A stretch of DNA of 64,000 nucleotides, from NCBI RefSeq assembly GCF_900774055.1, contig NZ_CAAGSW010000001.1:389797-453796 (forward strand), read 5' to 3'. This document shows, in pieces, positions 28,227 through 30,303 of this stretch. The notes beneath the pieces are model-generated. The model did not search any database. It was given only the letters and a program-made list of their open reading frames with translations, and was not told where the DNA came from. Both the position numbers and the translations under genes were made by a program. Origin of the DNA: Methanococcoides sp. AM1 (GTDB lineage Archaea; Halobacteriota; Methanosarcinia; Methanosarcinales; Methanosarcinaceae). The stretch's first letter is position 1; every line of letters starts with the position of its first letter.

Positions 28227-28376
28227 TCAGCTATTCCTAGCTTCCTTGGATTTTACACGCAGGTTACTGTAACCGCATTTTCTGCACCTTGTTGCTCTGA
28301 TAGCATTTCGTGCACTGCATTTCATACAGATCTTTTTATTAAGGATCCTTTCCTCTGCTTCTGGAAATCTTGCCAT
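28227..28376 (-). CDS. rpl40e: Ribosomal protein L40e
   Basis: 49 residues ([20 protein letters not shown]...). Four cysteines in two CxxC pairs, Cys17/Cys20 and Cys31/Cys34, form the zinc ribbon, and the basic [19 protein letters not shown] part is diagnostic of archaeal L40e. GGTGA precedes the ATG with good spacing. It is the first gene of the L40e-GGGPS-atwA unit and lies downstream of the candidate RNA. Confidence 0.93.
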
Positions 28377-28577
28377 GTTCTCACCTGATTGATTAATAGT
28401 ATAATAATATGTTATTTGAAACTGATAGTCATTAGTAATACAGGCTGGCTACATGCATTTCAAAACATATAACTGTTTTGGGATAAAGACAAACACGTTT
28501 ACAAAAAAGTGAGAAGCGGACAAAGCAAAAATAAAGCCAGAGCTAATCGGAAATAAATTGTAAAAAAGTAATTTGAA

Positions 28578-28751
28578 GGCAGTGATCAGGGATCAATTTG
28601 TCGACTTTACTGGACGACATCTCATTGGGCGACCCTTCCCCCGATATCCTCCCCATCTCAGGTCGACCTAAAGGATTTACAAAGGCCATACAAACCTTGA
28701 AAGGTCATGGGCTTTTATACCCAATGGCGCTCTACCTTCTGACTCACTGCC
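28578..28751 (-). ncRNA. Candidate structured RNA between gatB and rpl40e
   Basis: The 505-bp spacer holds no credible ORF but a compact fold. Closing helix: 28578-28589 (GGCAGTGATCAG) pairs with 28739-28751, twelve pairs with one bulged base. Inside are GTCGACTT/AGGTCGAC (28600-28607 with 28660-28667) enclosing a GGG-CGA-CCC hairpin, and GCCAT/ATGGC (28685-28689 with 28724-28728) enclosing two hairpins, ACCT/AGGT and GGG/CCC. The GC content stands out from the AT-rich flanks. Minus-strand orientation is favoured by a TATA-like TTTTAAAACATAT near 28,785-28,797 and an oligo-T tract just past the closing helix (28563-28568). It is not SRP RNA, 5S rRNA, a tRNA or recognisable RNase P RNA. Confidence 0.5.
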
Positions 28752-28753
28752 AC

Positions 28754-28775
28754 ACCGTACCATTTATGATACGGT
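28754..28775. other. Hairpin flanking the candidate RNA
   Basis: ACCGTA (28754-28759) pairs with TACGGT (28770-28775) around a 10-nt loop. It could be an extra 5' hairpin of a minus-strand RNA or a terminator for a plus-strand one. Confidence 0.4.
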
Positions 28776-28881
28776 AATAGAGAATATGTTTTAAAACTAC
28801 TAGAGGATTTTGATATACAATCTGGTAACAAAAAGAAAAATAAGAAAGCTAATAAAAAACGAAAGGACAAGGTCGATGACC

Positions 28882-30303
28882 TTAGTCCTTAAGAGCAGCA
28901 ATAAGCAACTCACGGGCCTGACGTGCATCTGCCCGGCCTTTTGTTTTCTTCATTACCTGACCTACAAGGAAATTGAGGGATTTCTCAGTCCCACCAAGAT
29001 AATCCTGAACAGCTTCCTCATTCTCCGCAATGGTCTCGGAGACTGCCTGTGTCACAATATCCCCTTCGACCTTCAGGAGACCTTTCTCCTTTACGATATC
29101 CATAGGACTTCCACCGACATCAAGGATCGTCCTGATAACATCGACAGCACTCTGTTCAGTGATCCTTTCTTCCACCACAAGGCCGATGATCTCAATTATG
29201 TCCTCGGTAGCAAAGGATGTGATAGGCAAGTCCCTGTAATTCAGCTCACCCCTTAGCACATCGGAAACCCAGGTCCCTGCTGCACGAGGATCGACCTTTG
29301 AGGCAACTATCTCAAAGAAGTCCGCCACGCGAATGTCCGAGGTCAGTGCCTTTGCATGCATCTCCGTGATGCCGTACTGTGAGATGAAACGCTCACGTTT
29401 CGTATCAGGCAGTTCCGGCAATGTTTCCTGAATAGCCGGGCCCCAGTCGGACACCCTCATCGGTACAAGATCAGGCTCAGGGAAGTAGCGATAGTCATGT
29501 TCCTCTTCTTTTGTACGCATGGAGATGGTAACGCCCCTTGCCTCATCGAAGTGACGTGTCTCCAATACCACCTTGCCGCCCCTTCTTAAAAGGTTCTTCT
29601 GACGCATGATCTCAAAGAGAATAGCACGTTCTGCACCTTTGTGGGAGGAGATGTTCTTGACCTCTACCCTCTGGCCTCCCATGATGGACACATTGGAGTC
29701 CACCCTCATGGAACCTTCAAGGCTGCCGTCGAACACATCAAGATATTCGAGGATATTTCTCAACTTGTCAAGGTACCTGCGGGCCTCTTTCGGGCTTCTC
29801 ATATCAGGCTCGGAAACGATCTCGATAAGAGACATTCCGGAACGGTTGTAATCAATAAGTGTCCCCTTGGACTTCTCAATGGTTCCCATGTGCATCAGAC
29901 GACCAGGGTCCTCTTCCATGTGCGCACGTGTGATCCTTACCACATGCTCCCCATCTTCGCCTTCAATGACGACCTTCCCACCACCAACGATAGGGAAATC
30001 ATACTGGGTGGTCTGGAAACCTTTTGGAAGATCAGGATAGTAATAGTTCTTCCTGTGGAACTGTGTCTGCTCCACAATTTCACAATTGAGAGCCAGGCCA
30101 ATCTTCATAGCAGCTTCCACTGACTTCTTGTTGATAACAGGCAGTGCACCCGGAAGACCCAGGCAGACCGGACAGACGTGAGAGTTAGGTTCTGCATCGT
30201 GGTATTTTGTAGAACAGCCGCAGAACATCTTGGTGTTGAGCTTGTTCAGCTGGACGTGAACCTCCAGGCCGATCATGACACCATCGGGATTATCGTATAC
30301 CAT
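28882..30303 (-). CDS. gatB: Asp-tRNA(Asn)/Glu-tRNA(Gln) amidotransferase subunit B
   Basis: 473 residues. The cradle domain begins with MIGLEVHVQLNKLNTKMFCGC, whose cysteines with CPVCLGLPGALP bind zinc; the YatY/tail domain at the C-terminus (about 320-473) contacts the tRNA. It forms GatCAB with the two upstream genes and converts misacylated Asp-tRNA(Asn) (in archaea mainly this substrate, since GatDE handles Glu-tRNA(Gln)) to Asn-tRNA. The start directly abuts the gatA stop. Confidence 0.96.
   Translation of the reverse strand: MVYDNPDGVMIGLEVHVQLNKLNTKMFCGCSTKYHDAEPNSHVCPVCLGLPGALPVINKKSVEAAMKIGLALNCEIVEQTQFHRKNYYYPDLPKGFQTTQYDFPIVGGGKVVIEGEDGEHVVRITRAHMEEDPGRLMHMGTIEKSKGTLIDYNRSGMSLIEIVSEPDMRSPKEARRYLDKLRNILEYLDVFDGSLEGSMRVDSNVSIMGGQRVEVKNISSHKGAERAILFEIMRQKNLLRRGGKVVLETRHFDEARGVTISMRTKEEEHDYRYFPEPDLVPMRVSDWGPAIQETLPELPDTKRERFISQYGITEMHAKALTSDIRVADFFEIVASKVDPRAAGTWVSDVLRGELNYRDLPITSFATEDIIEIIGLVVEERITEQSAVDVIRTILDVGGSPMDIVKEKGLLKVEGDIVTQAVSETIAENEEAVQDYLGGTEKSLNFLVGQVMKKTKGRADARQARELLIAALKD

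Follow-up and report, generated by a model that had tools for sequence, protein, structure and literature searches.

To our knowledge, there are few archaeal sRNAs with known family, structure and regulation. Methanolobus psychrophilus R15 is reported to possess nine cold-induced, conserved intergenic sRNAs that share an upstream 'cold box' (PMC5378194). In Methanosarcina mazei, sRNA154, sRNA162 and sRNA41 are independent, promoter-driven, structured sRNAs that act in trans on mRNAs (PMC5867862, PMC3510493). Among bacteria, the sibling sRNAs of Neisseria are encoded by multiple, nearly identical genes in each genome and combine common parts with parts peculiar to one copy (PMC5362039).

Here we analyze an intergenic element of Methanococcoides sp. 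AM1, located in a stretch of 64,000 nucleotides (hereafter the window, to which all coordinates refer unless a contig is named). The best explanation of this element is an autonomous structured non-coding RNA gene of ~200–240 nt, on the minus strand from roughly 28790 to 28562, which belongs to an uncatalogued family of Methanosarcinaceae. With the M. mazei sRNAs it appears to share an independent, promoter-driven and structured character and a methanosarcinal host (action in trans being a property of theirs). Taken as a whole, we read the locus as a member of a new ncRNA gene family whose RNAs are siblings acting in trans, built from a scaffold common to all copies and a domain peculiar to each, and we put the probability of this reading at about 0.62. 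Of one part, the independence of the RNA gene, we are highly confident; for the other part, the trans-acting model with constant scaffold and variable domain, we would give somewhat less than even odds.

Structure of the minus-strand element

A folded RNA-like element was originally predicted at 28563–28800. On the minus strand this segment folds with -77.9 kcal/mol, compared to -61.3 ± 4.5 for shuffled sequences (z -3.73, 0/200 shuffles as good), and its helices lie where they had been placed. The plus strand folds less well (-58.7, z -1.9), which identifies the minus strand as the RNA strand. The closing helix turned out to be exact, with GGCAGTGA-[G]-TCAG (28751–28739, minus strand) pairing to CTGATCACTGCC (28589–28578) over 12 bp with one bulged purine, and the expected contrast between a GC-rich element and AT-rich surroundings is real (GC 0.42–0.51 in the core vs 0.29–0.34 on either flank). 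The existence of the element is thus confirmed but its extent has to be revised, as the conserved unit is longer, reaching from 28834 to ~28560 or to 28523–28527, and also takes in a 5' hairpin and an upstream 24-bp inverted repeat (Table 1).

Table 1. Features of the RNA locus and its neighbours, in the order in which the minus strand is read
Feature	Position	Strand	Evidence or content
gatB, upstream neighbour	28882..30303	-	ORF list and synteny
24-bp inverted repeat TTTGTTAC-CAGATTGT-ATATCAAA	28809..28832	-	presumed operator/promoter; right arm holds TATA-like TATAT
AT-rich block GTAGTTTTAAAACATATTCTCTATT	28776..28800	-	strongly conserved in 22-copy alignment
P1, 5' hairpin ACCGTATCA-TAAA-TGGTACGGT	28754..28775	-	compensatory changes: 2 pairs within genus, 3 across genera
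P2, closing helix, 5' strand	28739..28751	-	99.6% of cells paired, 22 distinct sequences
Domain I, three-way junction	28671..28738	-	stem P3 with hairpins A and B
Domain II	28600..28667	-	P4 around G-rich stretch and hairpin GGG-TCG-CCC; copy-variable
P2, closing helix, 3' strand	28578..28589	-	as for 5' strand
T6 tract, putative terminator	28562..28567	-	directly 3' of closing helix; almost every copy T-rich here
Further conserved stretch CGATTAGCTCTGGCTTTATTTTTGC with T5 at its end	28527..28553	-	in about half of copies
rpl40e, downstream neighbour, outside the element	28227..28376	-	ORF list

Stem P3 of domain I comprises AAGG/CCTT and GAGcGCC/GGCcTTT and holds hairpin A (TGGGT..GCCCA) and hairpin B (ACCT..AGGT). 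Among 23 copies, 94.6% of the cells of the P1–P4 structure are paired, vs 26–43% when the partners are slid, and nine pairs show changes in both partners (0/500 shuffles); in the comparison across genera, which covers P1, P2 and hairpins A and B, 92.3% are paired and ten pairs are changed on both sides (0/500), these counts having to be read with the caveat that the paired sequence within the genus is largely invariant and that the covariation comes partly from few events (G030, G068 and between-genus changes). In P2, four pairs bear compensatory changes between genera. Within the genus, hairpin B is the weakest of the helices (68% of cells paired); hairpins A and B recur in the divergent gatB-linked homologues, and the P1 hairpin is also present in three divergent groups. 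RNAalifold, run on a set from two further genera of the family (g3 and g12), returned the same architecture with six compensatory pairs of its own, and single folds of members of three divergent groups have the same layout (z -3.8, -6.9 and -4.4). Thus, the check in relatives that the original prediction called for found the sequence conserved and the paired arms bearing compensatory changes, and the genomic tests (conserved sequence and promoter, covarying pairs) support its proposal of an independent minus-strand RNA of ~200 nt.

In domain II, a GTCGAC/GTCGAC helix had been proposed. The helix is real, but in its best supported form (P4) it is a 6-bp helix of 28667–28662 with 28605–28600, in which both sides are changed at three pairs: GTCGAC/GTCGAC becomes GTTGGC/GCCAAC in G030 and ACCGAC/GTCGGT in G068. 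The pairing favoured by RNAalifold for this domain (CGACCT/GGGTCG with a hairpin GTCGA/TTGAT) breaks in G030 and/or G068, and P4 is therefore preferred.

The Rfam check gave no family for the element: with Rfam 15, the window as a whole gave no match and 28380–28900 no relevant one at E ≤ 10, and in the divergent homologues no gathering-score match overlaps it. Archaeal SRP RNA (RF01857) and RNase P RNA (RF00373) were rejected as candidates, since this genome carries its own copies elsewhere (C1:289518–289832, 214 bits, and C6:69445–69797, 196 bits, respectively). A plasmid, phage or viral origin was rejected as well, with no match among plasmids, phages and viral contigs.

Promoter region, 3' end and phylogenetic distribution

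The inverted repeat has the consensus TTTGnTAyCAnnTTnTrTAyCAAA and precedes, with 0–1 mismatches, almost every window-type copy whose upstream sequence is intact. A family-wide scan at the same 0–1 mismatches found it almost absent except before this RNA, and a control with the reversed pattern gave few matches, near zero. In G009 (L033:1–210), a fragment of an IS630-type transposase, recognised by eye, stands in place of the inverted repeat upstream of one copy. Judged by its conservation, the GTAGTTTTAAAACATATTCTCTATT block may be the core promoter and/or the 5' end of the transcript. TATA-like sequences occur both inside the inverted repeat and closer to P1, which leaves the start site ambiguous. 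The TATA-like block and the oligo-T run of the original prediction are both found at their places on the minus strand. Besides T6, there is a second run, T5, at 28531–28527 (minus strand), in which the CGATTAGCTCTGGCTTTATTTTTGC stretch ends. In several copies elsewhere the homology to the window stops near 28560, and in those with CGATTAGCTCTGGCTTTATTTTTGC it ends at 28523–28527; the T5 could be a back-up terminator.

Further downstream, genera with the RNA and genera lacking it both conserve the segment 28425–28485 (CCCAAAACAGTTATATGTTTTGAAATGCATGTAGCCAGCC) in front of rpl40e; this segment is therefore probably the rpl40e promoter or leader. In genus g7 (G110, G016, G125, G129, G130; L242–L245, L247), we observed a long conserved intergenic region with no Rfam match, which lies behind a near-perfect palindrome, TTTGTTATCAGATTTGATAACAAA. 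The palindrome resembles the inverted repeat of the present RNA, and TTTGTATACAAA motifs also precede the g7 region.

A DNA search of 60 relatives gave strong matches in 11/11 Methanococcoides genomes (1–5 each) and one match in a genome of another genus, G030. That the genus is Methanococcoides follows from contig C11 of G004, whose gatB locus is that of M. vulcani SLH33 (contig NZ_FOHQ01000005). A covariance model made from 22 copies (R1) and run against 112 genomes of the family recovered this set and added, in four Methanococcoides genomes, a second and divergent type (62–68 bits), as well as one copy in G068 and matches in genera g3 and g12 that are weak but full-length. A second model (R2), built from 14 diverse sequences, detected the RNA in all 11 Methanococcoides genomes, five genomes of g3, two of g12 and two of g8, and nothing credible elsewhere, either in the family or among 186 genomes searched across the order; genera g4, g7, g11, g13 and g14 gave weak incoherent matches or none. 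Methanococcoides genomes carry from one to at least four copies, and the genome of the window has a single one, that at gatB. Neither this multi-copy family nor the divergent orthologues at the gatB position in other genera had been foreseen by the original prediction.

The RNA occupies the gatB position in most Methanococcoides genomes and in g3 and g12, but lies elsewhere in the two g8 genomes. Every divergent-type, g3 or g12 match whose context can be read sits immediately 3' of gatB, in the orientation of that gene, and is thereby confirmed without recourse to its score. The position at gatB is thus the one common to several genera. In the M. burtonii clade (L081–L084; we take G005 to be M. 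burtonii DSM 6242), the RNA at gatB is a strongly diverged paralogue that has no inverted repeat, and the window-type copies are found elsewhere. G030 (genus g8, L048/L062) has its sole copy just downstream of a tRNA gene. The presence of the RNA in only two g8 genomes suggests gain by transfer or repeated loss.

Constant and variable parts and the competing readings

In several genomes, the 5' half of the RNA (P1 and domain I) is 0.93–1.00 identical among copies, as opposed to values down to 0.53 for domain II; between the gatB copy and the C copy of G004, for instance, the identities are 0.96 and 0.53. The 5' half of the latter copy, G004_C, resembles those of its own genome (0.93–0.96), whereas in comparison with G003 copies of the other clade (G003_F) it is domain II that agrees better (0.92, vs 0.88 for the 5' half). 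This discordance, with the module trees resting on short alignments, fits gene conversion of a constant module beside a copy-specific second one. Homogenisation is not universal, as the 5' halves of the paralogues in G007 and G010 are only 0.79–0.81 identical.

On these grounds we propose that a regulator binding the inverted repeat would control transcription of the RNA, and that the copies would be sibling RNAs acting in trans. P1 and domain I would provide the constant scaffold, for protein binding, stability or processing, while domain II, GGG-rich and different among copies, could confer specificity for a target or ligand. A point against our explanation is that the divergent paralogue at gatB in the M. 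burtonii clade lacks the inverted repeat. The most elaborate version, a modular sibling-sRNA system of several RNA genes with one dedicated regulator site, a 5' scaffold homogenised by gene conversion, and a copy-specific domain II selecting different targets, possibly in the cold response of these psychro-tolerant methanogens, is a tentative idea that we put forward with reserve.

The main rival is a structural or ribonucleoprotein RNA, i.e. an RNA that works mainly as a folded scaffold or protein decoy rather than by base pairing and whose dose is tuned by the copy number. It would account for the high degree of structure, for the near-invariance of P2, domain I and the GGGTCGCCC hairpin, and for a fold maintained across genera despite sequence change. 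However, a pure dosage model does not predict the strong differences in domain II between copies of one genome, and the gene neighbourhoods suggest no partner protein; we regard this explanation as rather unlikely. Should it nevertheless be correct, the RNA would be no less interesting, as a structured RNA conserved in several copies in methanogens.

The position of the element between two co-directional genes, common to three genera as far as gatB is concerned, could also indicate a cis element of the neighbours: a 3' UTR or processing element of gatB, or a leader or attenuator of rpl40e. Against this, nine copies elsewhere begin to match the window precisely at 28834, immediately ahead of the inverted repeat; promoter and RNA have thus been kept together beside unrelated genes, which occur in either orientation. 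Moreover, in genera g6, g8, g13 and g14 rpl40e comes directly after gatB with no such RNA between them, and in the window T-runs separate the RNA from rpl40e. The 28834 boundary, an inverted repeat of its own, the unrelated neighbours, rpl40e genes without the RNA, and the lack of a conserved frame speak against a UTR or leader as well as a protein gene, and a cis role is improbable.

A miniature mobile element of the MITE type, its ends structured by chance, would explain why the copies are multiple and dispersed and why several lie at contig ends. Segments have indeed moved: five copies elsewhere carry an upstream relic of the gatB 3' end, which indicates that they were duplicated from the gatB locus. 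But the upstream breakpoints vary (28974, 28969, 28921, 28914 and 28898 in these five, 28834 in the nine copies mentioned above) and there are no terminal inverted repeats, which makes a mobile element unlikely; the low copy number (1 to about 5), the compensatory changes that maintain the fold, the gatB position common to different genera and the lack of plasmid, phage and viral matches point the same way, and we give this reading a very small chance. The original prediction had allowed for a match to a transposable element end; none appeared, and the copies elsewhere have no fixed transposon-like ends. With regard to a target-site duplication, G000 has no copy at a locus beside a P-loop ATPase gene, where the flanks are too diverged for the junction to be read. 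Finally, a short protein-coding gene, for which two overlapping minus-strand ORFs of 48 and 51 aa and the recurrence of a peptide MAFVNPLGRPEMG.. in some copies could be quoted, can practically be dismissed, as the frame is not kept among copies (stops or frameshifts in most, indels in domain II that are often not multiples of three) and neither g3 and g12 nor the divergent gatB-linked type has the peptide motif.

An independent RNA gene therefore remains our preferred reading: the element shows compensatory changes, it has a promoter and a terminator-like T-run that are kept at unrelated loci, and it holds no conserved frame.

Comparison with known RNAs

Since the RNA is now defined by alignments, covariance models, a promoter motif and copies per genome, it is directly testable in cultured strains, and the question of how new targets are acquired by archaeal sRNAs could be approached through its constant/variable layout. 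In size and degree of structure it can be set beside archaeal SRP RNA and RNase P RNA, which are also large structured ncRNAs (200–350 nt).

The M. psychrophilus cold-box sRNAs are the closest described set, and we treat the likeness as a lead, not as evidence. They come from the same archaeal family and likewise form an intergenic set whose members share a motif ahead of the promoter. The present RNA occurs in M. burtonii, a cold-adapted relative and a model of cold adaptation. On the other hand, R2 finds no credible member in the genomes of g4, the genus that we take to be Methanolobus, and a search of 400 kb of G013, a g4 genome, revealed other repeats but not this RNA. One of them (L283–L302) is a G-rich element of ~130 nt (..CTACTATAGGGACTCCTGT..AAAAAAAGGGGTGAGGGGGTTTGGGGGAGAGGGGA) with a ATTTTRCATTAMATGA-like motif upstream, present as at least five diverged intergenic copies (at about 212476, 220352, 299275, 313556 and 350106 of the concatenated sequence), which is possibly the counterpart of the cold-box sRNAs. 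Another, in the same loci, is a MITE-like repeat of ~190 nt with roughly 25 nearly identical copies in the 400 kb.

Among the M. mazei sRNAs, sRNA154 is, according to a review, conserved in Methanosarcina and has two loops, whereas the present RNA is multi-copy and has a multi-branched fold; it is not detected in the large-genome genera g7 and g11, which we take to be Methanosarcina. With the Neisseria sibling sRNAs it has in common the presence of several homologous genes per genome, seen in Methanococcoides if not in the window's own genome with its one copy. The Neisseria RNAs are bacterial and unrelated in sequence, while the RNA described here is archaeal and far more structured.
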